From an uncultured Bacteroidales bacterium (GTDB taxonomy: Bacteria; Bacteroidota; Bacteroidia; Bacteroidales; Paludibacteraceae): a stretch of DNA of 33,211 bases. The DNA is taken from the NCBI GenBank assembly GCA_903927945.1, contig CAIYOZ010000108.1, positions 1 through 33,211 on the forward strand, written 5' to 3'. The first letter of the stretch is position 1, and each line of letters begins with the position of its first letter. The translations under genes were made by a program, and so were the position numbers. Positions 125 through 26,597 of the stretch are shown here, in pieces. Under the pieces are notes generated by a model. The model ran no database searches. It was not told the origin of the DNA and saw only the letters and a list, made by a program, of their open reading frames with translations.

Positions 125-205
125 TAACCAATCAACTCAGTCAGCCCCACCAACCCAATCAACTTATTTAACTTATTTAACTTAATCAACTTAATCAACC
201 AATCC
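125..205. repeat. Nonamer tandem array (9 units) abutting a stop codon
   Basis: Nine consecutive 9-bp units lie in perfect register. They include AACTTATTT twice, AACTTAATC twice, AACCCAATC and AACCAATCC. The last unit ends at the base before the aminotransferase stop codon (206-208 on the minus strand), so in the transcript the array starts directly after the stop. Bases 1-124 are AT-rich and show nothing recognisable. Function unknown. Confidence 0.8.
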
Positions 206-1405
206 CTAAATCGTCTTTCCCGGATATACTTCCAGTGCTTTCCCAAGTATGATCAGTGCATGTTTCAGTTCTTCCTTATCGAGCACATACGCAATACGGA
301 CTTCATCCTTGCCAAGGCCATCCACGGTATAAAAGCCTGATGCAGGAGCCATCATGATGGTATACCCTTCATATTCAAAGTCAGAAAGAAGCCACGCACA
401 AAACTTATCGGCATCATCTACAGGCAAGCGTGCCACGGTATAAAATGCACCCATGGGTATCGGTGAATAAACGCCCGGTAAGCGGTTCAGACCATCAATC
501 AGAAACTTACGACGCTCCACATATTCGTTATACATCTCTAGCATGTACTCAGGTGGAGTATTCATGGCAGCTTCCGAAGCAATCTGACCCAATAATGGAG
601 GACTCAGTCGCGCCTGACAGAATTTGATAACGTTTTTGCGTACTTCCTTATTCTTAGTCACCAAGGCTCCAATTCGAACACCGGTCATGCTGTATCTTTT
701 TGAAACAGAATCAATCAACACCACATTTTCCTCAATACCATCCAAATGGAAAGCAGAGATATAGGGTGCACCTGTATAGCAGAACTCACGGTATACTTCG
801 TCTGAGAAGAGATACAGGTCATACTTCTTTACCAGATCACGTATTTTGTTCATCTCGGAGCGGGTGTATAAATATCCGGTGGGATTATTTGGATTGCATA
901 TGAGGATACCCTTTGTTTTAGAAGTAATCAATTCCTCAAATCTTTCTACGGATGGCAATGCAAAACCTTCTTCAATGGACGAAACCACAGGACGTACCAC
1001 TGCACCGGCTGCTATGGCAAAAGCGGTATAGTTGGCATAGGCAGGTTCGGGAACGATAATCTCATCACCCGGATCAAGGCAGCTCATGAAGGCAAAGTTC
1101 ACTGCTTCGGAACCGCCGGTAGTGATAATAATATCATCTTCGGTCACATCGATATTGAAGGTATGATAGTAAGCCGCCAGTTTTGTCCTCAGGCTTTTGA
1201 TGCCATCACTGGGGCTGTATTCAAGCACAGTACGGTCGATATTCCTGATCGCATCCAGCGCTACCTGAGGTGTTTTCAAATCGGGCTGTCCGATATTGAG
1301 ATGATACACTTTGATACCGCGAGCTTTAGCTTTATCAGATAGGGGAACCAATTTACGTATTGGTGATTCGGGCATTGCCTGCCCTCGAAGAGAGGTGTGT
1401 GGCAT
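206..1405 (-). CDS. PLP-dependent class I/II aminotransferase
   Basis: This is a fold-type I aminotransferase of the aspartate/aromatic group, transferring an amino group from an amino acid to a 2-oxoacid in the cytoplasm. Visible landmarks are NPNNPTG at 171-177, SDEVY at 201-205 (Asp202 and Tyr205 contact the cofactor), the PLP-binding Lys236 in SVSKRYSMTG, and a late Arg370 in VRIAYVL for the substrate carboxylate. At 399 residues it has the usual length. The first ATG is used here; Met11 (MPESPIRKL) is an equally good start because homology begins about there. A TAATTTTG -7 word lies upstream, so its 5' leader would contain the heptamer array at 1412-1453. Substrate cannot be told from sequence; aspartate is a reasonable guess. 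Confidence 0.93.
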   Translation of the reverse strand: MPHTSLRGQAMPESPIRKLVPLSDKAKARGIKVYHLNIGQPDLKTPQVALDAIRNIDRTVLEYSPSDGIKSLRTKLAAYYHTFNIDVTEDDIIITTGGSEAVNFAFMSCLDPGDEIIVPEPAYANYTAFAIAAGAVVRPVVSSIEEGFALPSVERFEELITSKTKGILICNPNNPTGYLYTRSEMNKIRDLVKKYDLYLFSDEVYREFCYTGAPYISAFHLDGIEENVVLIDSVSKRYSMTGVRIGALVTKNKEVRKNVIKFCQARLSPPLLGQIASEAAMNTPPEYMLEMYNEYVERRKFLIDGLNRLPGVYSPIPMGAFYTVARLPVDDADKFCAWLLSDFEYEGYTIMMAPASGFYTVDGLGKDEVRIAYVLDKEELKHALIILGKALEVYPGKTI

Positions 1406-1411
1406 TTTGGT

Positions 1412-1453
1412 CAGTTATCGGTTATCAGTCATCAGGGAACAGTTATCAGTTAA
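1412..1453. repeat. Heptamer tandem array (CAGTTAT type)
   Basis: Six 7-bp units lie in register: CAGTTAT, CGGTTAT, CAGTCAT, CAGGGAA, CAGTTAT, CAGTTAA. The array ends six bases from the annotated aminotransferase start codon and lies downstream of a likely promoter, so it should be transcribed in the 5' leader. Confidence 0.75.
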
Positions 1454-1503
1454 CTATTTCAGGTTGATTTAATGGCTGAAATTCATATTATTAATTATCG
1501 CTG

Positions 1504-1511
1504 CAAAATTA
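1504..1511 (-). promoter_or_regulatory. Bacteroidetes -7 promoter word for the aminotransferase
   Basis: On the minus strand this reads TAATTTTG, matching the Bacteroidetes consensus TAnnTTTG. It lies about 100 bases before the aminotransferase start. No convincing -33 TTTG is seen, so confidence is moderate. Confidence 0.45.
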
Positions 1512-1540
1512 GTGAAATTAACCCGATTAAAAAAGGATTA

Positions 1541-1624
1541 GTAAGTAGTATGTAGTCGGTAGTCGGTAGTTAATAGTAAGTAGTCGGTAGTAGGAAGTCG
1601 GTAGTAAGTAGTGGATAGTATGAA
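1541..1624. repeat. Heptamer tandem array (GTCGGTA type, 12 units)
   Basis: Twelve 7-bp units run without a phase slip. All begin with GT; GTCGGTA occurs four times and GTAAGTA three times. It is in inverted orientation relative to the array at 1740-1802, leaving about 115 bp of unremarkable AT-rich DNA between them. Confidence 0.85.
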
Positions 1625-1739: not shown

Positions 1740-1802
1740 TACTGACTACAAAACTTCTACCCACTACTGACTACTGACTTCCTACTACCGACTTCCTACT
1801 AT
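1740..1802. repeat. Heptamer tandem array (TGACTAC / CTACTAC type) overlapping a stop codon
   Basis: Nine 7-bp units in register, including TGACTAC, TGACTTC, CTACTAC and CGACTTC. Their reverse complements (GTAGTCA, GAAGTCG, GTAGTAG) resemble the units at 1541-1624. The last unit overlaps the stop codon of the TonB-dependent receptor (1799-1801). Confidence 0.8.
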
Positions 1803-4276
1803 TTCAAGTCTACCATTACCTTCAGGTTTAGCTGGCGGCCTGTGAGAAAATTTGGTACCGCCAGTTTATGATTGGACACATCGGTTACCCAATAGTATGA
1901 ATTGACATTTTGAAAATCAAGCAGATTAAAGACTTCCACGTTCAGCCAGATATTCTTTACGTGTTTTAGCCACGATTTGTTCATCAGTTGATCGGTTCCA
2001 TTCACCAGCACCCGGGAAGCACCTATGTCGACCCGTCGATAGGGAGGATTCCGAAAAGCAGTACGATATTCGATATTATTAGGCGGACCGAAAGGAAGCC
2101 CGTCGGACCATACAAACTTCAATTGCATTTTATACTTCGGATTGTTCGGCAGATAGTCCTGAAACAAGGTGGAAAATGTATAGCGTTGTTCACTTGGGCT
2201 GGATACCCATCCCGGATAAATACGTGGCCCAGTCACTACATTTCCATTTGCATCCAGGCTGTGGCTGATATATGAATCCCCGATAATGTTTTGTTTCGAA
2301 TTCATCAATGAAAGGTTGATCCATGATTCAGCACCCGGAACCAATTCACCATTCAGTTTAAAATCCACCCCTGCAGTATAGGCTTTTGCATCATTTTTTC
2401 CTGAATACACTATTTGTACATTATCCACGCTATAGGAAATCACCCTGTCAGCTAATTTCAAATAAGCTTCGCTGGTAAATTTAAAAGGGCGACCACCCGC
2501 CCTGAAATAATAGTCACCCCCTAATACAAAATGGAGGGATCGCTCAGCTTTGATATGATTGTTGAGTTGAACCCTCACATTTCCTTGTGCGTCGGTCAAT
2601 GTATCCCGGATTTCCTTATAGAATGGCGCCTGGTAATATACACCGGTGGCAAAACGGAAACTGAAATCACGTTTCCAATGGGGAAGATAAGAGACTGCAA
2701 AACGGGGACTGATCAACAATTCCCGATTGAAAGTCCAGTAACTGGCCCGCAACCCTCCGGTTACTGAAAATGCACCAGCCTCTGTATTCCATTTGTAAGT
2801 ATCCTGGAAGAAAGCTGCCGACCGCCACGAGGATAATGTCGTGTCCGATTTTAAATTGTAGTATAGATTAACCAGCTTATTGGTCAGTGGAAGTGAATAT
2901 CCTGCTGAGTCACGCATTTCCCACTCCCCTTTCTTATCTGATATTTGTTCATTCTGGATACTGACACCCCATTTCATTTTATGACCGTCCACATCATATT
3001 CCCCGAGGTGGCCTATATTGCTTACATACGCATTCAACATGTTACGCGCATGTTGTTGATACCTGCCTACCCCCAGCGAAGCACCGGTTTGTTTCGTGGG
3101 GTCAGGATCCACCTTTACTTCACTGAGCACATAATCGCCCAGGATATCATAGGTTTCACTCTCGTTAGTGTAAAATGAAGATCCAAGCAGGCTCAGTTTC
3201 ATACCTTTCACCGGTTTGTAATTCAGGGTCAATGCACCAAAAGATGTACGGAATAAATCCTGCTCCTGCCCTTCGAAAAACACGGTAAGCTTACGTCCAT
3301 CGGTATAGGTACCAAAAGTTGTTTCACGGGTTTGGGGGACAAACTGATAGGAATTCTGGGAAAAGTTTCCTAAGAAAGTCAATTCTAATTTCTTATTCAG
3401 TTGATAGGTCATGTAGGTTTGATAGTCGAAGAAAGCTGGAGTGTATTCAGCCTTGGTATCCAGCGTTCCGAGCAGGTATGCCGAGGTCTTGTACCGAAAT
3501 CCGTGCATCATAGTAAACTTGTCATTGGCTGTACCCACATAGGCAGACGCGCCCAATAAACTGACCGAACCCGTAGCCTCAAACTCCGTGGGTTTCTTAT
3601 ACTGAATATCGAGTACGGATGACATCTTGTCTCCGTATTTGGCATCATAACCCCCTGCCGAGAAAGCCACATTCTGAACCATATCCGGGTTGATAAAGCT
3701 CAATCCTTCCTGTTGGCCCGAACGGATCAACAACGGACGGTATACTTCAATCCCATTGACATATACGGCGTTCTCATCAAAATTTCCACCCCGTACGTTG
3801 TATTGCGAACTTAGTTCATTGCTCGAACTGACTCCGGCGAAGGTGATCAACAGTGATTCAATTCCACCGGCAGCATTCGGCATGATCCTGAATTTTCCTG
3901 GATCAAGCATATCCAATGTGGACGTTTGACGGCGTTGGCCTAAAATATTCACTTCCCCTATTTCTTTGGATAAGGCTGGCAGAACCACCGATATCTGGAC
4001 AACCTGTTGGTGGGGATGAATAGTATGTTTAATGGTTTGGTATCCAAGCATGGAATAGACCAGGGTAGCTGAGTCCTTTACGTTCATGGTCAACTCGTAA
4101 TACCCGTTTTGATTGGTATTGGTTCCTACGGCAGTGTTTGCAAAAAATACGCTGGCAAATTCAATACCCCGGTTATTGGAATCGATCACATACCCGTATA
4201 CCCGTACCTTGGATTGTGCCGACATACCCACTGAAAAAAGGAATATACTAAATAGAATGATGATTTTGTTCTTCAT
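1799..4276 (-). CDS. TonB-dependent outer-membrane receptor with CarboxypepD_reg-like domain
   Basis: An outer-membrane active transporter powered by TonB/ExbBD. Residues 1-20 are a signal peptide ending at MSAQ. About 24-105 form a carboxypeptidase-regulatory-like beta-sandwich (VRVYGYV to ISVVLP). About 118-230 form the plug domain, with the typical RGGNFDENAVYVNGIEVY stretch near 162-179. The rest is a beta-barrel. Length of 825 residues fits a non-SusC receptor, and no susD gene is adjacent. The substrate is not visible; the importer genes at 7.3-10.8 kb are about 3 kb away and need not be linked. A strong promoter (4374-4405) gives a leader of about 90 bases containing a small AGGGTT/AACCCT inverted repeat at 4304-4318. 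The stop codon lies inside a heptamer array. Confidence 0.93.
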   Translation of the reverse strand: MKNKIIILFSIFLFSVGMSAQSKVRVYGYVIDSNNRGIEFASVFFANTAVGTNTNQNGYYELTMNVKDSATLVYSMLGYQTIKHTIHPHQQVVQISVVLPALSKEIGEVNILGQRRQTSTLDMLDPGKFRIMPNAAGGIESLLITFAGVSSSNELSSQYNVRGGNFDENAVYVNGIEVYRPLLIRSGQQEGLSFINPDMVQNVAFSAGGYDAKYGDKMSSVLDIQYKKPTEFEATGSVSLLGASAYVGTANDKFTMMHGFRYKTSAYLLGTLDTKAEYTPAFFDYQTYMTYQLNKKLELTFLGNFSQNSYQFVPQTRETTFGTYTDGRKLTVFFEGQEQDLFRTSFGALTLNYKPVKGMKLSLLGSSFYTNESETYDILGDYVLSEVKVDPDPTKQTGASLGVGRYQQHARNMLNAYVSNIGHLGEYDVDGHKMKWGVSIQNEQISDKKGEWEMRDSAGYSLPLTNKLVNLYYNLKSDTTLSSWRSAAFFQDTYKWNTEAGAFSVTGGLRASYWTFNRELLISPRFAVSYLPHWKRDFSFRFATGVYYQAPFYKEIRDTLTDAQGNVRVQLNNHIKAERSLHFVLGGDYYFRAGGRPFKFTSEAYLKLADRVISYSVDNVQIVYSGKNDAKAYTAGVDFKLNGELVPGAESWINLSLMNSKQNIIGDSYISHSLDANGNVVTGPRIYPGWVSSPSEQRYTFSTLFQDYLPNNPKYKMQLKFVWSDGLPFGPPNNIEYRTAFRNPPYRRVDIGASRVLVNGTDQLMNKSWLKHVKNIWLNVEVFNLLDFQNVNSYYWVTDVSNHKLAVPNFLTGRQLNLKVMVDLK

Positions 4277-4534: not shown

Positions 4535-4660
4535 TCATGGACGGTCTTTAGATATCACATACATATTACATACATATCAGATATTTAAATCGGTATGTAA
4601 TATGTATGCATGTATTAAGTATGTCATGAGTATTTATTTAGTATTTTTTTCATAAAGCCC
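4535..4660. repeat. Palindromic intergenic element, copy 1
   Basis: The core is a perfect 16-bp inverted repeat (CATACATATTACATAC at 4558-4573, its complement at 4593-4608) around a 19-base loop. The core and flanks resemble the element at 12744-12922: shared GGTCTTTAGA on the left, a centre of the form ATATYTAAATNGGTATGTAAYAT, and TTTCAT...AAAG on the right. The outer arms are degenerate compared with copy 2. The remaining bases of the 4277-4755 spacer show only the receptor promoter. Confidence 0.65.
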
Positions 4661-7307: not shown

Positions 7308-8285
7308 TCACTCAAACTGCTGTCCCAGTTCGTGGAGTAATTCCTCCACAGTGAAGATATCTTTATTGTTCATTGACCATCCCTGTTCAGTAACCAGTAT
7401 CTGAACCTCAGCATCCTGAACCACGACATAGCCTGCACGTGCCAATGCCCGAAGAGTCCAATACATGCGGGTTTTATCACCCGATACCCACACCTTGTTG
7501 GTCATGGGGTAATTCATGGAGAAATTGCCGTTGGAAGCATTGAAAAAGAAGGAATTGCTTTGGAACACCCGGTTGAAACTGCCGTTAAAGACCAGGTCTT
7601 CCGGCACACCACATTCAACGCCATGCTCGGAACTGATCAACCAGATACGGTCGGCAGCCTGGAGCGCCAGGTCGAGTTCGTGAGTAGAGAGCAGGATAGC
7701 CTTTTGGGTTTTATGGGCAAGTTTGTGCAGCAAAAGCATTATTTCCACGCGGTTTGGCAAGTCGAGATGAGCGGTTGGTTCGTCGAGCATGATAATGGGC
7801 GTATCTTGTGCCAGCGCCTTAGCTATCATAGCCCGCTGCCTTTCACCATCGGAGAGCTCGTTGATATTCTGATGCATTTTATGATCCATATGTACCATTT
7901 CAATGGCTTCACGAATAATGGCATCTTCTTCCTGCGTGATATTTCCCCACCAGTTGCTATGCGGATGACGGCCCAGGGACACCAGGTTGTAGACTGTAGT
8001 ATTCTCAACATCTACCCGTTCGGTAAGTACCAACGCGATCATCAATGCTTTCTGATGTTGCTTTAATTTTGTAATTTCTTTCCCATCAATCATTGATGTA
8101 CCTGCCAGAGATTTTTGAAGCCCCGTGAGCGTACGTAAAAGCGTAGACTTGCCACTCCCGTTCGGTCCAATCAAGCATACCAACTCCCCGGCCCGTAACT
8201 CCAGATCGAGACCTGACTGGATGACATCAGTCTTTCCTTTTTTGGAATAACCGATGGAGAGGTGTTGGGTGGTGAGGATTGACAT
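7308..8285 (-). CDS. ABC transporter ATP-binding protein, FecE/BtuD type, with C-terminal extension
   Basis: The ATPase subunit of an iron-chelate, haem or cobalamin importer, acting on the inner face of the membrane with the FecD-like permease encoded upstream. It shows Walker A GPNGSGKST (40-48), the ABC signature LSDGERQ (144-150), Walker B IIMLDEP (164-170) and the H-loop His202. At 325 residues it exceeds the usual 250-260: after about residue 240 there is an extra domain of about 85 residues (TRMYWTLRALARAGY, FTVEELLHEL) with no motif I recognise. Transcribed after btuF-like and fecD-like genes; a composite 9-mer/7-mer array lies just before its start. Confidence 0.9.
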   Translation of the reverse strand: MSILTTQHLSIGYSKKGKTDVIQSGLDLELRAGELVCLIGPNGSGKSTLLRTLTGLQKSLAGTSMIDGKEITKLKQHQKALMIALVLTERVDVENTTVYNLVSLGRHPHSNWWGNITQEEDAIIREAIEMVHMDHKMHQNINELSDGERQRAMIAKALAQDTPIIMLDEPTAHLDLPNRVEIMLLLHKLAHKTQKAILLSTHELDLALQAADRIWLISSEHGVECGVPEDLVFNGSFNRVFQSNSFFFNASNGNFSMNYPMTNKVWVSGDKTRMYWTLRALARAGYVVVQDAEVQILVTEQGWSMNNKDIFTVEELLHELGQQFE

Positions 8286-8292: not shown

Positions 8293-8349
8293 AAAGTTTG
8301 AAAGGTTTGAAGAGTTTAAGAGTTCCGTGTTCTGCGTTCCGTGTTCGAC
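8293..8349. repeat. Composite nonamer-then-heptamer array
   Basis: Units of 8-9 bp (GTTTGAAAG, GTTTGAAGA, GTTTAAGA) pass directly into 7-bp units (GTTCCGT, GTTCTGC, GTTCCGT, GTTCGAC). The array ends seven bases from the fecE-like start codon. The same composite, starting with the identical GTTTGAAAG, stands before the symporter at 15212-15280. Confidence 0.8.
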
Positions 8350-8407: not shown

Positions 8408-8484
8408 ACCACTATCAACCAGCTACTATCAGTACAGCTTGCACTTCCGACTACCAACTATAAACTACTAACTATAAACTAATT
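8408..8484. repeat. Heptamer tandem array (ACTATAA type) running into a stop codon
   Basis: Eleven 7-bp units in register, including ACTATAA twice, ACTACTA, ACTACCA and GCTACTA. The final unit overlaps the TAA stop of the fecD-like gene (8483-8485). Together with 8293-8349 it occupies most of the 197-bp spacer between permease and ATPase genes. Confidence 0.75.
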
Positions 8485-9478
8485 ATCTTTTCTTCAACAA
8501 TATCCATATGATAATCGGTGCCCCAAACAAGGCACTGACAGTATTAATCGGTAATGTATACGTTGGAATCTGAGTAATAATATCGCAAACAAGGAGCAAT
8601 GATGCGCCACAAAGTATGGTTGCAGGTAACAGTATTTTATGGCTCGACGTACGGAACAATCCACGTGCAATATGTGGAATAGCTACCCCTACAAAGGCAA
8701 TGGGACCGGTGAATGCCGTAATACCACCTGCCAGTAGCCCTGTTGCTACAACAATGAGCAACCGGGTACGGACAATTGATATACCCAACCCACGGGCATA
8801 ATTCTCACCCAGAAGCAATCCGTCCAACCGTTTTTGAAGGAAAAATGCAATGCCCAGTCCAATAAGAACGACCGGTAATAACACCTGCATATAATTCCAG
8901 GTAACAGCACTCAGGCTGCCAAAAGTCCACATAACGAATAGCTTGATGGCATCGGGATTACTGAAATTCTGCAATACACTCACCAACGACCCGGCAATGG
9001 TACCAAACATCAACCCGACAATCAACAACGATACGGCATTGTGTACTTTGAATGATACCCCTACCACCAGCACCAGCACAACCGAAGCACCGATTGTGGC
9101 CGCCACAATTAATGCCCAGCCGCTGCTGACAAATGCAACAGGAAGAAACGTAGCAGCCATCATGACCAATGCTACACCCAAACTGGCACCCGAACTTACA
9201 CCCAGTATATACGGATCCGCCAATGAATTGCGAAACAACGTCTGCATCATTAATCCTGCCACGGATAGTGAAGCGCCGGCCAGTATCGCTGTAATGGCTT
9301 TTGGCAAACGGAAGTTCAATAATATCTCTGAATTGATTCCATTCGACCCTTTGCCGATAAATACTGATAATATTTCATTCAAGGATATATGAATGCTACC
9401 CCATGCCAGATCGGCCAGGAATAGACCCAGGGTAAAGAGGGAAAGGGCGAGGAATAATATGAGGGAGCGATTATGCAA
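8483..9478 (-). CDS. FecCD-family ABC transporter permease
   Basis: The membrane subunit (about ten helices) of the iron-chelate/cobalamin importer. Family signatures include LNFRLPKAITAILAGASLSVAG, NSLADPYILGVSSGASLG, GENYARGLGI and the C-terminal GPIAFVGVAIPHIAR. The frame is open up to a TTG at 9526, but that codon overlaps a TATCTTTG promoter word. I therefore choose the next TTG at 9478, which gives MHNRSLILFLAL and 331 residues, the family norm. No ATG or GTG alternative exists near the N-terminus. It follows the btuF-like gene by a spacer carrying an interleaved inverted repeat. Confidence 0.85.
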   Translation of the reverse strand: MHNRSLILFLALSLFTLGLFLADLAWGSIHISLNEILSVFIGKGSNGINSEILLNFRLPKAITAILAGASLSVAGLMMQTLFRNSLADPYILGVSSGASLGVALVMMAATFLPVAFVSSGWALIVAATIGASVVLVLVVGVSFKVHNAVSLLIVGLMFGTIAGSLVSVLQNFSNPDAIKLFVMWTFGSLSAVTWNYMQVLLPVVLIGLGIAFFLQKRLDGLLLGENYARGLGISIVRTRLLIVVATGLLAGGITAFTGPIAFVGVAIPHIARGLFRTSSHKILLPATILCGASLLLVCDIITQIPTYTLPINTVSALFGAPIIIWILLKKR

Positions 9479-9523
9479 TTGATTGTTTTTTATCAGTCCT
9501 ATTATAGGAATGATTTTCGGGCA

Positions 9524-9531
9524 CAAAGATA
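9524..9531 (-). promoter_or_regulatory. Candidate -7 promoter word before the permease gene
   Basis: The minus strand reads TATCTTTG, a full match to TAnnTTTG, about 45 bases before the preferred TTG start. A clear -33 TTTG is missing. If active, the permease and ATPase genes can be transcribed separately from the binding-protein gene. Confidence 0.45.
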
Positions 9532-9565
9532 CAAAATTATCTTAATTTGACAGGGTTTTTAAAAA

Positions 9566-9637
9566 ACGCTGACAGGTCTAAAGACGCTGTCAGGTTTGTG
9601 ATGATGACCTGTCAGCGTGCTTGCACCTGACAGCGTC
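9566..9637. repeat. Two interleaved 13-bp inverted repeats (A-B-A'-B')
   Basis: A (ACGCTGACAGGTC, 9566-9578) is the exact reverse complement of A' (9606-9618). B (GACGCTGTCAGGT, 9583-9595) is the exact reverse complement of B' (9625-9637). The order A-B-A'-B' permits a pseudoknot-like pairing. Because the ten-base cores of A and B differ at one central base, A/B' and B/A' pairing is nearly as good. Further partial copies of TGACAGG and CAGCGTCA occur at 9549-9555 and just before the btuF-like stop codon (9652-9654). Confidence 0.8.
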
Positions 9638-9651
9638 AAATAGCCACAGCG

Positions 9652-12922: not shown

Positions 12923-12971
12923 AGGAGTATCGGTAGAGGTAGGGTAGGCGTTATACATTATAAAGCATGCA

Positions 12972-15280: not shown

Positions 15281-15281
15281 A

Positions 15282-16587: not shown

Positions 16588-17013
16588 ATGCAAATTGCTG
16601 TAGATTTTGACGGTACCATTGTTACCCACGAATATCCAAAAATCGGGAAAGAAATCCCTTTCGCGATAGATACCTTAAAACGATTACAACAACGACCTGA
16701 ATACCAACTGATTTTGTGGACGGTACGCGAAGGTGTTTTATTGGAAGAAGCCATTGAATATTGCCGGAATCGGGGCCTGGTGTTTTATGCAGTGAATTCG
16801 AATTATCCGGAAGAATCTCCTGAACATTTGGAACCCCGTAAATTGCAGGTTGATGTTTTCATTGACGATAGAAACCTGGGTGGTTTACCCGATTGGGGAA
16901 TTATTTATAGAATGATTACTTCCGGAAAATACCTGGAACCAATTACATCGGATATCGAAAGAGAATATCAGTTGCCTAAAAAAGGATTCTTTGATACCCT
17001 GTTTGGGAAGTAA
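16588..17013 (+). CDS. Small HAD-superfamily hydrolase (BT0820-like)
   Basis: A minimal HAD-fold phosphatase-like protein of 141 residues. Motif I DFDGT is at 6-10 (Asp6 nucleophile, Asp8 acid/base), motif II Thr45 in LWTVREG, motif III probably Lys85, and motif IV FIDDRN with Asp93 and Asp94. It closely recalls the structurally characterised Bacteroides protein BT0820 in overall pattern (AVDFDGTIV, WGIIYRMI). The substrate is unknown. It is followed directly by a 14-unit heptamer array. Confidence 0.85.
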   Translation: MQIAVDFDGTIVTHEYPKIGKEIPFAIDTLKRLQQRPEYQLILWTVREGVLLEEAIEYCRNRGLVFYAVNSNYPEESPEHLEPRKLQVDVFIDDRNLGGLPDWGIIYRMITSGKYLEPITSDIEREYQLPKKGFFDTLFGK

Positions 17014-17021
17014 TTAGCTTC

Positions 17022-17127
17022 GAGGAATGAGGAATGAGTAAAAAGACGCAAGAGGTAAGAGGTAAGGAATGAGGAATGTATCGAGAATTGAGAAGTAAAT
17101 AGTAAATAGTAAATAATTAAATAGTAA
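17022..17127. repeat. Long heptamer array filling the HAD-GNAT spacer, changing unit type along its length
   Basis: Fourteen 7-bp units run in one register (17022-17119) plus a final 8-bp unit. The first group is GAGGAAT-like, then AAGAGGT twice, then GAGGAAT again, then ATAGTAA-like. It begins nine bases after the HAD stop codon and ends ten bases before the GTG start of the acetyltransferase. Confidence 0.85.
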
Positions 17128-17137
17128 ATTCTTTTTT

Positions 17138-17677
17138 GTGTTACTGGAAAACGAAAACATGCGACTTCGAGCTGTCGAACCGGGTGACCTGGATCGGTTG
17201 TATGCGTGGGAAAATAACACGCTATTGTGGGATGCAGGCAATACACGCAATCCATATTCCCGCTTTATTCTCAAACAGTATATCATCAATTCCGATAAGG
17301 ATATCTATGAGAACAAACAACTCCGGCTGATGATGGTTGATAAGAAAACCAATGATACTGTCGGTACCGTTGATCTGTTTGATTATGACATTCATAACAG
17401 TCGTGTTGCATTGGGTCTTTTTGTTGATACACCTTTCCAGGGGAAAGGATATGCCCGGGAAAGTCTGGGATTAATTGAAGAATACGTTTTTAAGTTTCTG
17501 AAGATCAACCAGCTTTATTGTCATATCTCTGAGAATAACACTGCCAGTAAGCATTTGTTTGAACAGGAACATTATGAGAAAACCGGGCTGCTCAAAGATT
17601 GGATCAGAACTATTAACGGTTTCGAAAACATCGTTCTTTTTCAACAATTGAGATCTACCTACCTGAAGCGGGATTGA
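17138..17677 (+). CDS. GNAT-family N-acetyltransferase
   Basis: A 179-residue acetyl-CoA-dependent acetyltransferase of the RimJ/SpeG-like group. The acetyl-CoA pyrophosphate loop QGKGYA is at 101-106, after the strand ALGLFVD. The N-terminal LLENENMRLRAVEPGDLDRLYAWEN matches the usual start of this group, which favours the GTG start at 17138 over the ATG at 17159. The acceptor (protein N-terminus, polyamine or other) cannot be inferred. Confidence 0.9.
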   Translation: MLLENENMRLRAVEPGDLDRLYAWENNTLLWDAGNTRNPYSRFILKQYIINSDKDIYENKQLRLMMVDKKTNDTVGTVDLFDYDIHNSRVALGLFVDTPFQGKGYARESLGLIEEYVFKFLKINQLYCHISENNTASKHLFEQEHYEKTGLLKDWIRTINGFENIVLFQQLRSTYLKRD

Positions 17678-17898: not shown

Positions 17899-19485
17899 AT
17901 GCAAAAAGAGATTTCACTCCTTGAATTCCACTATGGTGAAGATACAATGACTATAGGGAGGGCCTTGAATTTAGCGCGGGGAATTGAAAAAGGAATCATC
18001 ACTGATTCAGTCCGTGTAAAAGTTCAAAAGAACCGCGAAGTGGTGGAGGCCATCGTGCATAAACAAAAGAGAGTATATGGCATTAACACCGGTTTTGGTC
18101 CGCTATGTACCACATTAATCGGAGAAGAAGACACTAAGAAACTGCAATACAACCTCCTGATGAGCCATAGTGTGGGGGTTGGAAATTCGATTGACAAGGA
18201 AATAGCCTGCCTGATGATGATCCTGAAAGTTCATGCCTTGTGCAAAGGATATTCAGGCATTGCTGTTGAAACTGTTGAACGGATACTGTGGCATATCGAA
18301 AACAATGTTATCCCATGCGTTCCTGAACAAGGTTCTGTGGGTGCTTCAGGAGATCTGGCACCCCTCGCCCATTTGTTCCTTCCTCTCATCGGCATGGGAA
18401 AAGTATGGCACCAGGGACAGATCAAGCCTATGTCCGAAGTGTTACAGATTCTCGATATGCAACCTGTCGATTTAGGTCCCAAAGAAGGACTGGCATTGAT
18501 AAACGGAACGCAGTTTATGAGTGCCCATGCAGTGATTCTGTTGGAGAAGTTGCAGAACTGCCTGGATCATGCCGACATCATTGCTGCCATGAACCATGAA
18601 GCCATGATGGGGTCGGTGAAATGCTTCGATGAAGAACTTCATAACCTGAGACCTTACTCCGGAAGCATCTATGTGGCACAACGAATGCGGAAGCTACTGA
18701 ACCACTCCGAGATTGTCACCTCCCATAAAAACTGCCTGAGAGTTCAGGATCCCTACTCCTTACGTTGTATTCCACAGGTACATGGTGCATCCCGCAATGC
18801 CTGGCTGCACTTGAAAGAAACAATACTGATAGAAATCAATTCCGTCACTGATAATCCGATTATCTTTTCAGAGGATAAAACCATCAGTGGTGGTCTTTTT
18901 CATGGTCAACCCATTGCTATGCCTATCGACTATGCCGGATTGGCAGCTGCTGAACTGGGAAATATCTCCGACCGCCGTATTTATCTCTCCATGATGGAAA
19001 GTGTCCCTGGATTACCCAAATTACTCATGAAACATACCGGGCTTAATTCAGGGTTTATGATACTTCAATATACCACAGCTGCTTTGGTAAGTGAAAATAA
19101 AACCCTTTGTTTCCCGGCCAGTGCGGATAGCATTCCCACCTCCCTTGGCCAGGAAGACCACGTCAGCATGGGATCTATCGGTGTCCGCAAAAGCCTGGTG
19201 ATTGTCAACAACCTGGAAAAAATACTGGCTATTGAATTATTGACAGCTGCCCAGGGATTTGATTTCAGGAAACCTCTGAAGTCAGGAATCCTGTTGGAAG
19301 AAACCCACCACTTGATACGTGAGCATATAACGTTTGCAGAGACTGACAGGGTGTTTTCGGATGATATTGAACAAGCCATAGCCCTGGTTCAATCAAAAGT
19401 AATCATCAAACATCTTCACCATATAGCCAAGAAACATCGCATAGACTTTAAAAACGAAGAGCATGAATTATTCGGAATTTATTGA
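17899..19485 (+). CDS. hutH: Histidine ammonia-lyase HutH
   Basis: Deaminates histidine to trans-urocanate, the first step of histidine degradation. The Ala149-Ser150-Gly151 triad in [14 protein letters not shown] forms the MIO electrophile. [10 protein letters not shown] near 60-69 holds the catalytic Tyr, and NGTQFMSAH and TDNPIIF follow in the usual places. The length of 528 residues is slightly above the 500-510 norm. Its 3' end overlaps hutU by 23 bp, indicating translational coupling. Confidence 0.97.
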
Positions 19486-21133
19486 AACTTACGCGCCACA
19501 TCCTCATTATAAAGCACCCAGAGGGAATCAGTTGCATGCCCGTTCCTGGCAAACAGAGGCTCCTTTACGCATGTTATTGAACAACCTGGATGCTGAAGTA
19601 GCTGAAGATCCTGCCAACCTGATTGTATACGGTGGTACCGGACAAGCTGCCCGAAATCCCGAAGCGGTGAAGGAAATCATTCGAATCCTGTTGGATATGG
19701 ACGAGTATCATTCCTTGTTGATACAATCGGGAAAACCCATTGGACTGGTTCGCTCCCACCCGCAGGCACCAAGGGTATATATTGCAAACAGCAACCTGGT
19801 ACCTGCCTGGGCAACCTGGGAACATTTTGAAGAACTGAAATCCAGAGGATTGATGATGTACGGTCAAATGACCGCCGGCAGCTGGATTTACATCGGAACG
19901 CAGGGTATTCTGCAGGGCACTTTTGAAACCTTTGTGGAGTGCGGACGAAAATACTTTAGTAATGATTTGACAAATAAGCTCATTGTATCTGGAGGAATCG
20001 GTGGTATGAGCGGTGCTCAGCCTTTGGCTGCCACCATGGCCGGTGCTACTTTCCTGGGAGTAGATGTTGATCCGCTACGGATAAAAAAAAGACTGGAGAC
20101 CCGTTATCTGGACAAAATGACGGATAACTACGAAGAAGCAAAACAATGGATACTTAAGGCTAAAAAAGAAGGAAATGCACTTTCTGTTGGGTTGGTGGGT
20201 AATATTGGTGATGTTCTTAAAAAGCTATTGAATGATAACATCATTCCAGATATATTGACTGATCAAACTTCAGCACATGACCCTCTAAATGGTTATGTTC
20301 CGAACGGATTAACGTTGGAAAAAGCATTTGCACTAAGAAAGAGCGATCCTGTCGATTACAAAGAACGATCATTGAAAAGCATGGCACGCCATGTGGGTTT
20401 TATGCTTGAAATGCAGAAACGGGGAAGCATAACCTTCGATTATGGAAACAACCTGCGTGAGTTTGCACGCCAAGGTGGTGAAGAACATGCCTTTGATTAC
20501 AATGGCTTTGTACCTGAATTTATCCGCCCGCTCTTCTGTGATGGAAAAGGCCCCTTCCGTTGGGTAGCACTTTCAGGTGATCCTGAAGATATATTCACAA
20601 CCGATAGGGCTTTAATGGAATTATTCCCTAAAAACCAGCATATGATCAAATGGCTGGTTGAAGCACAGGAAAAGGTAGCTTTCCAAGGTCTTCCGAGCCG
20701 GATATGCTGGTTGGGCATGGGTGAAAGAGAAAAAGCAGGCCTTTTATTCAATCAACTGGTAAAAGAAGGCAAGGTGAAAGCACCCATAGTGATTGGCCGT
20801 GATCATCTTGATTGCGGTTCAGTAGCATCGCCCAACAGGGAAACCGAAGGAATGCTTGATGGTACGGATGCTGTATCCGACTGGCCCTTGTTAAATTTAA
20901 TGGCCAATACAGGTGGTGGTGCTACCTGGGTATCATTCCATCACGGCGGTGGTGTGGGAATAGGCTATTCACAACATGCAGGAATGGTAGTTGTAGCCGA
21001 TGGCACCGAACATGCCGCAGAATGCCTTAAAAGAGTACTATACAACGATCCTGCCCTGGGAATATACCGTCATGCTGATGCGGGTTATGAAACAGCTATC
21101 GAAAACAGGAAACGTTTTGATATGAATTTCTAA
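19463..21133 (+). CDS. hutU: Urocanate hydratase HutU
   Basis: Hydrates urocanate to 4-imidazolone-5-propionate using tightly bound NAD+. Landmarks are [10 protein letters not shown] (56-65), the NAD-binding [13 protein letters not shown] (177-189), [10 protein letters not shown] (326-335) and the catalytic Cys415 in [11 protein letters not shown]. Length of 556 residues is standard. The start overlaps the end of hutH. The spacer after it contains four nonamer units. Confidence 0.97.
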
Positions 21134-21139
21134 ACGAAC

Positions 21140-21175
21140 CACAATAGACAAATAGAACACAATAGATCAACAATA
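21140..21175. repeat. Short nonamer array between hutU and hutI
   Basis: Four 9-bp units in register: CACAATAGA, CAAATAGAA, CACAATAGA, TCAACAATA. The array begins six bases after the hutU stop codon. Confidence 0.55.
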
Positions 21176-21212
21176 AAAGTGTTCAATGTTTTTAATATTC
21201 TATGAATGCTGT

Positions 21213-22439
21213 ATGACGCTAACCGGACCTTTCAAGCAATTACTTACCATGGACAATATACCCGAAAAAGGTGCATTGTCTGATGATCAACTTGAAATCA
21301 TTTCAGATGGAGGTATACTGCATCGTGATGGAAAGATAATTGAGACTGGAAATTTTCAAGAATTAAAAGAAAAATACGATACCACAAAAATTGAATGGGT
21401 GGAAGGAGATTATGTGGTTTTACCCGGAATGATTGATGTTCATACCCATATCTGTTGGGCAGGTTCCCGTGCTGAAGATTACGCCCTGCGTCTGTCGGGG
21501 AAAAGTTATCTGGAGATCGCTGAATTGGGAGGTGGAATTTGGGATACAGTAGAGAAAACCCGTAAAGCTTCAGTTGAAGAACTAGCTGATTTGACAGAGC
21601 AACGGGCTAACAGATTGCTAAAAATGGGTGTAACCACCATTGAAGTGAAAAGTGGTTATGGGTTATCGGTTAAACAGGAGCTGAAAATACTCAAAGCAAT
21701 TTCATTGGTGAATAAAAGAATTATGGTAGATATCATTCCAACCTGCCTGGCTGCACATATCCTACCAAAAGACTTCAAAGGCACTGAATTGGAATATCTT
21801 GATCTCATTGTTGAAAAACTATTACCTGAAGTAATGAGCCAGAATTTATCATCAAGAGTTGATATATTCATAGATAAAGGTGCTTTTTCTTTTATTGCTG
21901 CAAAAAGCTACCTGACAAAAGTAAAAGAGCTGGGGTTTGATATTGTTATCCATGGCGATCAGTTTAATTCGGGCACTGCAACACTTGCTAACGAAGTGCA
22001 GGCCCTTAGTCTCGACCATCTTGAAGCGGCTGACGAACAGGAAATAGCTTTACTGGCTGCAGGAAATGTCATTCCGGTTGTGCTACCCGGTGCCTCATTA
22101 GGCTTGGGTGAACCCTTTGCTCCTGCCCGATTGCTACTTGATGCAGGAACTTCGTTGGTTATAGCTTCCGACTGGAATCCCGGTACAGCCCCCATGGGTA
22201 ATTTGCTGACCGAAGCTTCTATATTGGGAGCCTACGAGAAATTGACCATGGCTGAAGTCTGGGCTGCGATAACATGCCGGGCAGCAATAGCATTAAAATT
22301 ATCTGATAGGGGAATCTTGAGAAAGGGAAATTTGGCTGATTTCAATGCATTCAAAACTGATGATTATAAGGAGATATTGTATCAGCAAGGTCAGTTGAAA
22401 GCAGGAATGGTATGGAAAAATGGAGAAATTGTAATATAA
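21213..22439 (+). CDS. hutI: Imidazolonepropionase HutI
   Basis: Opens imidazolone propionate to N-formimino-glutamate; a metal-dependent amidohydrolase. The ATG at 21213 (MTLTGPFKQLLTMDN) fits the family N-terminus better than the frame's first ATG at 21186, which adds nine unrelated residues. Counting from 21213, the metal ligands are His77 and His79 (DVHTHICW), His247 (HGDQFN) and Asp320 (ASDWNPG). At 409 residues it has normal length. It lies 80 bp after hutU and 13 bp before ftcD. Confidence 0.95.
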   Translation: MTLTGPFKQLLTMDNIPEKGALSDDQLEIISDGGILHRDGKIIETGNFQELKEKYDTTKIEWVEGDYVVLPGMIDVHTHICWAGSRAEDYALRLSGKSYLEIAELGGGIWDTVEKTRKASVEELADLTEQRANRLLKMGVTTIEVKSGYGLSVKQELKILKAISLVNKRIMVDIIPTCLAAHILPKDFKGTELEYLDLIVEKLLPEVMSQNLSSRVDIFIDKGAFSFIAAKSYLTKVKELGFDIVIHGDQFNSGTATLANEVQALSLDHLEAADEQEIALLAAGNVIPVVLPGASLGLGEPFAPARLLLDAGTSLVIASDWNPGTAPMGNLLTEASILGAYEKLTMAEVWAAITCRAAIALKLSDRGILRKGNLADFNAFKTDDYKEILYQQGQLKAGMVWKNGEIVI

Positions 22440-22452
22440 ACAAGGAACAGAT

Positions 22453-24150
22453 ATGGATAGGATAATTGAATGCGTGCCCAATTTTAGTGAAGGAAACAAC
22501 ATGGATATCATTAACAGGATTGTTCATGAAATCAATTCGGTAGATGGTATAAAGGTAATTGATATTGATCCGGGTAAAGCCACCAACCGGACAGTAGTAA
22601 CATTCCTGGGTTCACCTGAACAAGTTTGCGAAGCGGCCTTTCGTGCCGTAAAAAAGGCCTCCGAACTCATTGACATGAGCAAACACAAGGGTGAACATCC
22701 ACGTTTCGGGGCCACCGATGTACTTCCTCTGATTCCCGTAAAAGGAGTTACAATGGAAGAAACAATGGAATATGCACATAAGTTGGGAAAACGTATCGGG
22801 GAAGAATTAGGCATTCCTATCTATTTCTATGAGTTTGCTGCTACTGAAGAAAAAAGGCGTAACCTGGCAAATTGCCGTGCCGGAGAATATGAAGGTTTAG
22901 TACAAAAGCTGATAGATCCGGCATGGAAACCTGACTTTGGACCTGCAGCATTTACTGAACAGGTTCGCAAATCGGGAGCGATAGCCTTGAGTGCCCGCAA
23001 TTTTCTGATTGCCTACAATGTAAACCTGAATACTACTTCTACCCGCCTGGCAAATTCCATTGCCTTTGATATCCGTGAAAAAGGGAGGGTAAAAAGGGAA
23101 GGCAATCCATTGACCGGTAAAATCATCAAAGATGAACAGGGGAATAAAGTATACACCCCGGGTATCCTGAAAGGAGTCAAAGGAATCGGGTGGTATATTG
23201 AAGAATATGGCATTGCCCAGTTATCGTTCAATATTACAGACATCACTCTTGTCTCTATGCACCAGGTATTCGAACTGGCTTGTGAACGAGCTGCCCTTCG
23301 TGGAATCCGGGTAACCGGATCGGAACTGGTAGGGGTCATTCCGTTAAAGGCGATGGTGGAAGCAGGAAAGTACTTCTTACGGAAACAACATCGATCTACC
23401 GGGATATCCGATGATGAGATACTTAAAATTGCCGTCAAATCCTTAGGACTTGATGATCTGGTTCCATTTGATCCGAAAAAGAAAATTATTGAATACCTCA
23501 TGGAAGACAAGTCCCAAAAGAAGTTGATAGATTTATCTGTTCAAAAATTCACACACGAGACAGCATCCGAATCAGCTGCACCCGGTGGTGGTTCAATTGC
23601 CGCCTGCATGGGTGCCATGGGTGCAGCGCTTGGTTGTATGGTTGCCAACCTTTCAGCCCATAAGAAAGGTTGGGAAGATCGTTGGGAAGAGTTTTCCAAC
23701 TGGGCCGATAAAGGTAAAACCTACCAGGATGAGTTGCTCAGGTTGATTGATGAAGATACAAATGCATTCAATGGTGTCATGAGTGCCATGAGTCTGCCGA
23801 AAAAAAATGAAGAGGACATAGAAAAACGTTCGCAAGCTATTCAGATTGCAACCCGCCATGCCATGGAAACACCTTTCAAGGTAATGCAATTAAGTTACGA
23901 ATCAATGGAGGTCATGATGGCTATGGCTCAAACCGGAAATCCTAACTCAGTGTCTGATGCTGGTGTCGGTGCATTGGCTGCTCGATCAGCGGTACTTGGT
24001 GCAGCACTGAACGTTAGAATCAATGCAAGTGGATTAGCTGATAAAGAATTCGTGGTACAACTGCTCAAACAGGTAGATGAAATGGAACTTAAAGCTATTG
24101 AGATGGAAGCAACTATATTGGAGATAGTTAAGCAAAAGATTGTAATTTAG
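22453..24150 (+). CDS. ftcD: Glutamate formimidoyltransferase / formimidoyl-THF cyclodeaminase FtcD
   Basis: The last step of histidine degradation: it transfers the formimino group of formiminoglutamate to tetrahydrofolate, releasing glutamate, and cyclises the product to methenyl-THF plus ammonia. Residues 1 to about 330 are the transferase, with the catalytic His82 in GEHPRFGATDV. About 350-565 are the cyclodeaminase (SAAPGGGSIAACMGAMGAALG, then DEDTNAFNGVM and GNPNSVSDAGVGALAARSA). The two-domain fusion of 565 residues matches mammalian FTCD in layout. Because both activities are fused, no separate fchA or hutG is needed in this operon. Confidence 0.96.
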   Translation: MDRIIECVPNFSEGNNMDIINRIVHEINSVDGIKVIDIDPGKATNRTVVTFLGSPEQVCEAAFRAVKKASELIDMSKHKGEHPRFGATDVLPLIPVKGVTMEETMEYAHKLGKRIGEELGIPIYFYEFAATEEKRRNLANCRAGEYEGLVQKLIDPAWKPDFGPAAFTEQVRKSGAIALSARNFLIAYNVNLNTTSTRLANSIAFDIREKGRVKREGNPLTGKIIKDEQGNKVYTPGILKGVKGIGWYIEEYGIAQLSFNITDITLVSMHQVFELACERAALRGIRVTGSELVGVIPLKAMVEAGKYFLRKQHRSTGISDDEILKIAVKSLGLDDLVPFDPKKKIIEYLMEDKSQKKLIDLSVQKFTHETASESAAPGGGSIAACMGAMGAALGCMVANLSAHKKGWEDRWEEFSNWADKGKTYQDELLRLIDEDTNAFNGVMSAMSLPKKNEEDIEKRSQAIQIATRHAMETPFKVMQLSYESMEVMMAMAQTGNPNSVSDAGVGALAARSAVLGAALNVRINASGLADKEFVVQLLKQVDEMELKAIEMEATILEIVKQKIVI

Positions 24151-25490: not shown

Positions 25491-25540
25491 AAGTAACAGT
25501 TAGATAATTTCACTTCCAATTCCAGATTATTTTGCACAAC

Positions 25541-25580
25541 AAAAAACAGCAAACCATCACCGGTTTGCTGTTTTTTTTAT
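25541..25580. terminator. Bidirectional terminator between convergent genes
   Basis: AAAAAACAGCAAACC (25541-25555) pairs with GGTTTGCTGTTTTTT (25562-25576), with a 6-base loop and a T-run on both strands. It serves the propeller gene (plus) and manA (minus). Confidence 0.9.
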
Positions 25581-25596
25581 TCATGGTTTGGAAAAA

Positions 25597-26568
25597 TCAG
25601 GGTACGTATACTTCCAATAAAGTTACCTTATTCTCCGGAGTTAGTATCAGTTCATCAATGCTCGCTGGAATAAGCACTGTATCCCCTTTAGTAACCATTG
25701 TCTTCTCTCCCTCAAATTCGATCACAAAATCACCTTCCAGACACATATAAGCTACAAAAGAATCAATTCTCGCATAGTTTCGTTCAATGCGTTTATCGAA
25801 ACGAAGCATATTGGTAGTGAAATAATCACAGGTTACTAATGGTGTTGTTGCATTTAATAACGGAGTGTAATTCGTTTTAGGTTGTTTGGAAGCTTCAAAA
25901 TTAATTACATCCAATGCCTGTTCCGTATGCAGTTCTCGTTCATTACCATGATCATCTTTACGTTTGTAATCGTAGATTCGATATGTAATGTCGCTACTTT
26001 GCTGTATCTCAGCCACGACGACTCCCTTACCAATGGCGTGTACCCGTCCGGCAGGAATAAAGAATACATCACCTTTAGTAACGGGAACCTTTTGCAACAA
26101 GTCTTCCACTTTATCTTCAGCCATAGCTTCCAGATAAGTTTCACGTGAGCAATCATCCGAGAAACCAATGATCAATTCTGATCCTGGGTCTGCATCCACC
26201 ACATACCACATTTCGGTTTTTCCATACGAATTATGTCGTTCGGCAGCTACTTCATCGCCTGGATGTACCTGAATGGAAAGGTTTTCGTTCGCATCAATCA
26301 ACTTGAACAGCAAGGGGAACGACAATCCGTATTCATCATAGATTGTATCACCCACCAGTTCACCCATATAGATCTCGATCAGTTCCACCAGGTTATTTCC
26401 GGCCAGGAATCCATTGGTCACTACCGATTCATCACCTTCATAACCGGATAGTTCCCAGCTTTCACCTAGTTTATCACTTTCGGCCGGTTTATTAAATAGA
26501 CTTTTAAGTTTCGTTCCACCCCAGATTTTATCTTTGAGTATCGGACTGAATTTTAATGGATAGAGCAT
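25597..26568 (-). CDS. manA: Class I mannose-6-phosphate isomerase
   Basis: Interconverts mannose 6-phosphate and fructose 6-phosphate; a zinc-dependent cupin enzyme. Zinc ligands are visible as Gln100 and His102 (SIQVHPGDE), Glu119 (KTEMW) and a later His (IPAGRVHAIG, His177). The start at 26568 (MLYPLKFSPILKDKIWGG) matches the family. The frame continues 18 codons upstream, but those codons are a heptamer array plus low-complexity sequence and are not credible protein. Length of 323 residues is typical of the short Bacteroidetes/Firmicutes form. Confidence 0.95.
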   Translation of the reverse strand: MLYPLKFSPILKDKIWGGTKLKSLFNKPAESDKLGESWELSGYEGDESVVTNGFLAGNNLVELIEIYMGELVGDTIYDEYGLSFPLLFKLIDANENLSIQVHPGDEVAAERHNSYGKTEMWYVVDADPGSELIIGFSDDCSRETYLEAMAEDKVEDLLQKVPVTKGDVFFIPAGRVHAIGKGVVVAEIQQSSDITYRIYDYKRKDDHGNERELHTEQALDVINFEASKQPKTNYTPLLNATTPLVTCDYFTTNMLRFDKRIERNYARIDSFVAYMCLEGDFVIEFEGEKTMVTKGDTVLIPASIDELILTPENKVTLLEVYVP

Positions 26569-26569
26569 A

Positions 26570-26597
26570 GTAGTCGGTAGTTTGTAGTTGGCAGTTA
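26570..26597. repeat. Heptamer array (GTAGTCG type) abutting the manA start codon
   Basis: Four 7-bp units: GTAGTCG, GTAGTTT, GTAGTTG, GCAGTTA. It begins one base from the manA start codon. The first unit is a rotation of the GTCGGTA repeats at 1541-1624, about 25 kb away. Confidence 0.65.

Follow-up and report, generated by a model that had tools for sequence, protein, structure and literature searches.

Intergenic arrays of 7-, 8-, and 9-nt words set against gene ends and oriented into the spacer in a Bacteroidales genus

Here we report that many intergenic spacers of an uncultured Bacteroidales bacterium related to Paludibacter contain tandem arrays drawn from a genus-shared lexicon of 7-, 8-, and 9-nt words, and that these arrays adjoin gene ends, each word having one and the same strand directed 5' to 3' into the spacer. 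The analysis concerns a 33,211-nt stretch of DNA (the window), contig C108 (CAIYOZ010000108.1) of a 4.47-Mb metagenome-assembled genome in 450 contigs (GCA_903927945.1), labelled G000 here; other genomes carry labels of the same form, and the closest of 30 relatives is ~84% identical to G000 in the aminotransferase gene. An earlier note, made from the letters of the window alone, had described twelve spacer arrays of strict 7- or 9-bp period, each with its own unit. Our G000 sample of 713 kb is biased, most of its contigs having been picked for array or hairpin matches; 20 further contigs (109 kb) were chosen arbitrarily. For the relative G005 (662 kb), a second batch of regions was chosen at 9-mer matches and a first batch was not chosen by array matches. 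Gene ends were taken from a simple longest-open-reading-frame (ORF) caller.

Arrays are concentrated at gene ends. Within 10 bp of a gene end lie 83 of 128 arrays in G000, 66 of 200 in G005, and 11 of 14 in G015, against 29.6, 23.2, and 3.2, respectively, expected from random placement. Read inward from the gene, a given word has the same orientation at starts as at stops (the mirror rule). For arrays no farther than 15 bp from a gene end, orientation agrees in 482 and disagrees in 24 of 3897 G000 pairs, and it agrees in 418 and disagrees in 21 of 2913 G005 pairs. Counted by array, 93 of the 108 in G000 side with the majority and 10 against it, with 1 tie and 4 that share no word; the corresponding counts are 60 versus 6 at stop ends and 33 versus 4 at start ends, and 69 versus 6 of 81 arrays in G005. 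Because one orientation holds at start and stop ends, the mirror rule is set by the spacer edge and is independent of transcription. Arrays also reach into the stop codon itself. TAG serves as stop codon for 26 of 61 stop-end arrays in G000, compared with 99 of 517 genes (Fisher p 6e-6), and for 14 of 47 in G005, compared with 73 of 521 (p 0.003). In G000, lag match is highest over the spacer's first 15 bp (0.77), drops to 0.53 across the stop codon, and is 0.28-0.33 at the end of the gene; the intermediate figure for the stop codon indicates that the periodicity partly includes it.

The lexicon includes TAGTNNN, AACTGAT, AATTGGTT, AAGTTAATT/AGTTGATTG, GTTTGAAAG, GTTCCGT, GAGCATT, GAGGAAT, and GTAAATA. 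The commonest words, AGTTTAT, AGGTAGT, AATTGGTT, ATTGGTTG, and AGTTGATTG, have no GGG, and TAGTGGG is a minor unit. Sharing was scored as an exact 12-mer common to two arrays that lie within 40 bp of a gene end in different spacers, with the reversed sequence as a control for composition and period. Read inward, 585 of 5750 G000 pairs share a 12-mer in the same orientation, 29 in the opposite orientation, and 161 with the reversed control; in G005, the counts are 889 of 5956, 76, and 248. For 8-mer arrays the reversed control is high (149 versus 269) because AAYY words are near-symmetric. Sharing extends between species: a 12-mer match to at least one G005 array exists for 89 of 108 G000 arrays in the same orientation, for 58 in the opposite one, and for 34 with the reversed control; the numbers for G015 are 28, 2, and 12. 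TAGT arrays have an internal order, TAGTTTA before TAGTCGG; across 23 G000 arrays, the distance from the gene is smaller for TTA than for CGG units by 0.30 of the array length (permutation p 0.0002). At 11618-11755 of locus L044 and 14764-14837 of L035, AAYY/TTRR arrays of mixed 4- and 8-nt period show a purine-purine-pyrimidine-pyrimidine rhythm and no strict unit.

The view that each array has its own unit is therefore wrong, since the words recur across spacers and species; the window spacer 1405-1800 alone has 54 matching rows across G000, itself counted. Nor is the proposal of the earlier note that a period and not a sequence is maintained supported, given the shared lexicon, the polarity at gene ends, and the internal order of TAGT arrays. 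Its statement that the arrays are not one element copied whole does hold.

Raw spacer autocorrelation shows a short-lag excess of similar size in genomes with few arrays, and we therefore adopted counts of segments with a self-match score of at least 12 at each lag, compared with shuffles. Segment counts in the 713 kb of G000 are 90 (lag 7), 44 (lag 8), 13 (lag 9), 57 (lag 11), and 19 (lag 4); lag 10 has 5, lags 5 and 6 have none, and shuffles give 0-2 per lag. The arbitrarily chosen contigs alone hold 8 lag-7 segments versus 0.2 in shuffles. A 7-, 8-, or 9-nt array is present in 97 of 475 G000 spacers, and lag-7 segments number 54 in 66 kb of spacer versus 5 in 377 kb of coding sequence. In G005 we counted 80, 55, 85, and 49 segments at lags 7, 8, 9, and 11 (24, 15, 20, and 23 in the first batch). 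Period 9 is thus as frequent as period 7 in the G005 sample, period 7 leads in G000, periods 8, 9, and 11 are enriched too, and 5, 6, and 10 are low. G015 has 11 lag-7 segments in 360 kb, and G001 has no lag-7 arrays in 100 kb. That period-specific arrays fill many spacers, as had been proposed, is therefore confirmed at the genome scale. The predicted excess at 7 and 9 over shuffled spacers is strong at lag 7 and lesser at lag 9 in G000, and it is absent at 9 in the autocorrelation of the window spacers (5.25 kb), where the excess falls at 4, 7, 11, 14, 18, and 22. Periods 7 and 9 do not make up the set: 8 and 11 had been overlooked, and 9 is minor in G000.

Between species, orthologous spacers retain words, lose them, or exchange them for others. 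A DNA search across eight relatives, in which orthologs and paralogous arrays were mixed among the matches listed, was used only to locate orthologs. In the slot after the stop codon in the TonB/aminotransferase spacer, TAGTCGG-type words occur in G000, G015, and G016, CAGTTAT in G007, and TTTACCG-type words in G014. In the aminotransferase leader slot, 6 of 19 genomes, G000 included, have AACTGAT arrays (29-44 nt), and G005 has 9-/8-mers (by eye); 12 of the 19 have no lag-7 segment there, and one of these, G008, has a single AACTGAT. The spacer between the gene at 16588-17013 (h16588) and a GNAT gene carries GAGGAATG arrays in G000, G005, and G007 and GTTTCGT words in G013; it is 19 bp long in G014 and 34 bp in G015, both without arrays. 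On the GNAT side, AAATAGT of G000 corresponds to AAATTGT of G005 in three units each (by eye), a concerted change. Sequence similar to that at 10869-10956 of the window lies in the orthologous spacers of G007, G014, and G016. Period 7 is thus retained while words differ between species at the same spacer, as the earlier note had supposed for different loci.

TAGT words occur beyond the genus. Among 247 genomes of the order, TAGTNNN x3 is present in 70 and the period-6 form, with many trinucleotide runs among the matches listed, in 12; AAYY runs occur in 36 of 247, some as perfect tetramer runs. The NNN sets differ between genomes among the matches listed, for example, AAT/CAT in G054 and GGT/TGT in G087. 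The reversed control TGATNNN x3 is common too, and TAGT is therefore not a special core. In distant families, opposite-strand TAGT arrays no more than 300 bp apart are ordered plus then minus in 10 of 10 cases, among 89 clusters in the matches listed. Eight such pairs, from four families, have folds of -22 to -119 kcal/mol. Three of them span the gap from one called ORF to the next, four have a called ORF directly beside one end, and the last is 36 and 43 bp away from the neighbouring ORFs. Among single distant loci within 30 bp of exactly one gene end, three TAGT arrays run inward and one outward, and AAYY words fit in 2 of 2; other single loci are far from a gene end, span the spacer, or lie inside an ORF. 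In G222, pairs of TAGT arrays lie exactly 74 bp apart at three places (C1 358992/359066, C1 436462/436536, and C3 30062/30136), which suggests copied composites.

In the window, the twelve arrays were each compared, ungapped and at lags 4-12, with 400 dinucleotide shuffles of the spacer that holds the array. Nine pass at lag 7-9, with only 0-2 of 400 shuffles reaching their score, and three fail, namely 10869-10956 (34/400), 13677-13738 (39/400), and 21140-21175 (127/400). With indels allowed in Tandem Repeats Finder (TRF; 300 shuffles), these three also exceed shuffles, at periods 10-22. Repetition above shuffles is therefore found at all twelve sites, and the strict ungapped period of 7-9 at nine only. 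At the site given as 8408-8484, the ungapped test finds the repeat only across 8443-8481, and at 15212-15280 it upholds the 7-mer part, 15236-15280 (lag 7 score 32, 0/400 shuffles). The site given as 17022-17127, one of the nine that pass, is entered below as two arrays. The arrays are as follows.

125-205, minus strand: 9-mer array AACTTAATC/AACTTATTT, at a distance of 6 bp from the aminotransferase gene's stop (206-1405, minus); TRF score 58; lag 9 score 32 at 129-199, 0/400 shuffles.
1411-1452, minus strand: 7-mer array in the leader of 206-1405 (minus), 5 bp ahead of its ATG, with TAACTGA as sense unit; TRF and ungapped test.
1539-1620, plus strand: 7-mer array GTAGTCG/GTAGTAA, mid spacer, inverted partner of 1757-1801; TRF and ungapped test.
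1757-1801, minus strand: 7-mer array, sense TAGTCGG/TAGTAGG type, 2 bp past the stop of 1799-4276 (minus); TRF and ungapped test.
8293-8349, plus strand: 8/9-mer GTTTGAAAG then 7-mer GTTCCGT, inward from the start of 7308-8285 (minus); lag 8 score 12, lags 7 and 9 score 10; 0/400 shuffles.
8443-8481, minus strand: 7-mer array, sense TAGTTTA..TAGTCGG, 1 bp past the stop of 8483-9526 (minus); ungapped test.
10869-10956, minus strand: TTTACGA/ATTTACT repeats, imperfect and interrupted by indels, at the stop end of 10961-12466 (minus); TRF period 22/15, top score 72, 0/300 shuffles.
13677-13738, minus strand: imperfect 14-nt repeats with indels between GTPase and SSF genes; TRF period 14, score 71, 0/300 shuffles.
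15212-15280, plus strand: GTTTGAAAG-like 9-mers then 7-mer GTTCAGT/GTTCCGT, inward from the start of 13733-15196 (minus).
17022-17078, plus strand: 7-mer array GAGGAAT/AAGAGGT past the stop of 16588-17013 (plus); ungapped test.
17094-17129, plus strand: 7-mer array AGTAAAT before the GNAT gene 17138-17677 (plus); TRF score 56.
21140-21175, plus strand: weak 10/9-nt repeat with indels between urocanase and amidohydrolase genes; TRF 42 (period 10) and 38 (period 9), top score reached in 1/300 shuffles.
26570-26597, minus strand: short 7-mer array, sense AACTACC, before the called start of 25597-26568 (minus); 2/400 shuffles.

The arrangement of 9-mers followed by 7-mers, at 8293-8349 and 15212-15280, is by eye GTTTGAAAG followed by GTTCCGT, and the same order recurs by eye in another G000 spacer (L036 1258-1473) and in G005. 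The RNA of the aminotransferase spacer, which holds the arrays at 1539-1620 and 1757-1801, folds at -98.1 kcal/mol (z -6.6).

A second class, 11-nt-periodic hairpins, is separate from the gene-end arrays. The 11-bp arrays at 4549-4650 and 12766-12895 had been missed in the earlier list.

4549-4650, unstranded: 11-mer inverted arrays ATATCACATAC / GTATGTAATAT forming a mid-spacer hairpin; lag 11 score 16, 0/400 shuffles; fold -28.0 kcal/mol, z -3.5.
12716-12930, unstranded: giant hairpin with 11-nt-periodic arms, of a dispersed family; lag 11 score 46 at 12766-12834.

These hairpins occupy central positions in long spacers, the G000 median being about 610-630 bp. The stretch 12700-12960 folds at -103.6 kcal/mol, with z -6.4 for its inner 141 nt, and the 12716-12930 hairpin has 37 matching rows in G000, itself counted, many of which are the two strands of one palindrome. 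Further giant hairpins, with arm words that differ between copies, lie at L036 4500-4760, L042 15440-15860, L044 11900-12060, and L048 1080-1230. The family set comprises 17 copies (20 loci minus 3 that repeat a site), with stems of 47-92 pairs and dG of -59 to -126 kcal/mol. Lag-11 identity is 0.53-0.80 in left arms and 0.47-0.70 in right arms, and left arms fall to 0.13-0.29 at lags 10 and 12. The inner words GTTACATACAT are common to the copies; the outer arms differ (median best ungapped identity 46% over 136 pairs), and pairing of the outer 45 nt is 0.62-0.96 for 13 of the 17 and 0.33-0.49 for the remaining four. Eleven nucleotides make one turn of A-form RNA.

Other palindromes and genes were noted in passing. 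At 9527-9651 the window contains, by eye, palindromes CTGTCAGG...CCTGACAG that resemble repetitive extragenic palindromic (REP) sequences, and the stretch 9565-9644 matches several places in G007 among the matches listed. In G014, contig C128 has an insertion at ~16689-17523 (L188) in the spacer between ABC and FecCD genes, with palindromes on its flanks; its ORF resembles, by eye, a Y1 transposase of the REP-associated (RAYT) type with an HFHVV motif. A histidine degradation cluster (aromatic amino acid lyase, urocanase, amidohydrolase, and formiminotransferase-cyclodeaminase) occupies 17899-24150. An Rfam search of the window matched a tRNA gene alone (RF00005, 29754-29826, within a 1-kb spacer) and placed no family on the arrays or on the 11-nt hairpins.

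The arrays are of the bacterial intergenic heptamer type known from Xanthomonas, Nostoc, and Beggiatoaceae, in a multi-word variant; the explanation that we favour, and to which we give an even chance, is that they are produced by unit duplication or slippage, fold-back templating, and copying between spacers. Short words would arise and then lengthen through unit duplication or replication slippage. Nascent strands may then fold back or switch template, yielding inverted array partners and homogenised arrays; PMC4060949 cites template switching as giving rise to inverted repeats, and the perfecting of imperfect palindromes by this route is an established idea that it also cites. Arrays or words would further spread among spacers through template switching or recombination at shared words, which would explain one lexicon across the genome. 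Finally, selection would clear arrays from genes, which might explain why arrays end at start or stop codons and often provide the stop codon. In favour of this explanation are the period spectrum of spacers, the lexicon, the anchoring at gene ends with its mirror orientation and TAG stops, the order within TAGT arrays, and the changes at orthologous slots. A further point in its favour is an excess of inverted copies within the same spacer, present for 26 of 128 G000 arrays (3.7 expected) and 39 of 200 in G005 (9.1 expected).

Several observations weigh against this explanation. The proposed steps alone do not account for the mirror rule, and the G000 samples were partly chosen by matches. 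Without a distance limit the mirror rule is weaker (698 versus 113 of 8073 pairs in G000; 2059 versus 778 of 19717 in G005), as it is for partnerless arrays compared between stop and start ends at any distance (160 versus 43; 454 versus 256 in G005), and beyond 40 bp it is absent or slight (7 versus 7; 291 versus 219 in G005). In G015 the count is 2 versus 0, with 9 of 11 arrays sharing no word, too few to weigh. A strand rule based on G over C was rejected, 7-mer start ends being split 9 versus 9, and word orientation was used instead. Most arrays, 102 of 128 in G000 and 161 of 200 in G005, are without an inverted partner in their spacer. Left and right arrays of one spacer share words in 10 of 30 cases (6.0 expected) and in 12 of 41 in G005 (10.2 expected). 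With so few inverted partners, and with left and right arrays barely more alike than those of swapped spacers, fold-back templating cannot by itself account for the mirror rule. Pairing of a spacer's two ends in a hairpin was accordingly rejected as the sole cause of orientation. Moreover, the aligned stretches of the pairs L016/L017, L019/L021, and L070/L071 (91-94% identical) contain no array in which unit-sized indels could be seen.

A possible, clearly less probable, alternative is that the arrays are selected cis elements: trailer hairpins would terminate transcription or protect mRNA ends, and leader arrays would serve as G-poor unstructured sites for a protein such as S1 or a cold-shock protein, as PMC4679880 proposes for TAACTGA. 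The contact of arrays with start and stop codons, the AACTGAT leader array in six species, the folding of the aminotransferase spacer and of inverted TAGT pairs in four distant families, and the plus-then-minus order of all such pairs among the matches listed are consistent with such a role. It is at odds with an orientation that tracks the spacer edge and not transcription, with the 102 arrays that have no inverted partner, and with the aminotransferase gene itself, before which 12 of 19 genomes have no such array and G005 uses other words. Plain replication slippage with a preferred 7-nt step, acting independently at each locus, is unlikely in our view. An excess of heptamers is seen widely, with slippage put forward as its cause (PMC4679880, PMC4692102), and the occurrence of period-7 TAGT in 70 of the 247 order genomes, versus 12 of 247 for period 6, fits a 7-nt step. 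Slippage nonetheless predicts unrelated units without orientation, which the shared lexicon, the mirror rule, and the word order contradict, and it leaves periods 8, 9, and 11, with the gap at 10, unaccounted for.

We regard it as very unlikely that the arrays are palindromes with tandem-repeat arms, similar to REP sequences, bacterial interspersed mosaic elements (BIMEs), or miniature inverted-repeat transposable elements, moved by a Y1 (RAYT) or other transposase. Six Y1_Tnp matches in G000, the inverted arms of a minority of arrays, and the 74-bp spacing at three G222 places point towards movement of this kind. Yet G001 also has six Y1_Tnp matches and no lag-7 array in its 100 kb, no constant hairpin core was seen, one-armed arrays prevail, and the G005 array past the gene h16063 is one-armed and at the stop codon. 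Y1_Tnp is found in 15 of 17 genus genomes, and its presence does not follow array content in G001, which speaks against a Y1/RAYT transposase as the driver. Least probable of all is templated 3'-end extension, in which a putative telomerase-like reverse transcriptase or polymerase would add words at spacer breaks before the ends are joined. This would predict the mirror rule, a small lexicon, words ordered from the gene inward, and both one- and two-armed arrays, and many words are G/T-rich on the inward strand; words such as ATTTACT, however, are not G-rich, and several lexicons per genome would require several templates. A further reading, to which we attach only a slender chance, is that a process anchored at gene ends writes words 3'-ward into spacers by templated or fold-back-primed extension, with an unrecognised enzyme and a lineage-specific lexicon, and leaves a signature, inward mirror orientation at both gene ends, common to Bacteroidales, Xanthomonas, and Nostoc despite unrelated words.

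Compared with known systems, the arrays recall the short tandemly repeated repetitive sequences of cyanobacteria, heptanucleotide intergenic arrays of several unit types, to which we liken them by description and not by sequence. REP and BIME palindromes are dispersed extragenic inverted repeats, and their fixed stem is not seen here: arms are tandem, words and lengths vary, and most arrays are one-armed, so that a conserved short dispersed palindrome is not what most arrays contain (102 of 128 have no inverted partner). The general trait of heptamer arrays, 7-nt tandems in spacers that are rare in genes, is present in G000.

The earlier note knew of no described Bacteroidetes counterpart, whereas TAACTGA heptamer sets have been published for five Bacteroidetes, including Paludibacter propionicigenes with two sets, as well as for Beggiatoaceae and Cyanobacteria (MacGregor 2015, PMC4679880). 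In a Beggiatoaceae genome these direct repeats lie just before start codons; some sets are mixed with other heptamers, and 7-nt indels distinguish two Cyanothece strains (PMC4679880). The identical unit occurs here in one slot only, forward at 1411-1452 on the minus strand, 5 bp before an ATG. That work tracks one word; here TAACTGA has many others beside it, and arrays at stop ends and periods other than 7 are frequent. In the citations of Mrazek et al. (2007) within PMC4679880 and PMC4692102, polymerase slippage is proposed for long simple sequence repeats and heptanucleotide excess, with no lexicon, orientation rule, or word swapping. Among the open-access matches listed, we found no multi-word version and no Bacteroidales survey. 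Intergenic sequence of Bacteroidales that is used for promoter or small-RNA prediction may be array filler.

The nearest likeness is to the G-rich heptamers of Xanthomonas and Nostoc, imperfect tandem units of 7 nt in spacers for which no function was found (Rehm et al. 2015, PMC4692102). As described there, a word next to an ORF, whichever end it adjoins, is found on the strand that leads away from that ORF, with convergent pairs in Xanthomonas; this is the mirror rule with one word, and we meet it here with many. Xanthomonas and Nostoc have one G-rich, G-quadruplex-capable word type per genome (GGGAATC; GGGGAYT; PMC4692102), whereas the words here are many, mostly without GGG, and of periods 7, 8, and 9. 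Bacterial spacer heptamer arrays had previously been reported without a known cause, and one genus now shows many words, several periods, and one transcription-independent strand rule. A rule common to unrelated words in three phyla points to a shared process at gene ends, mutational or selected. In conclusion, the arrays described here are ordinary in kind, heptamer arrays and their strand rule having been published, and unusual in their richness.

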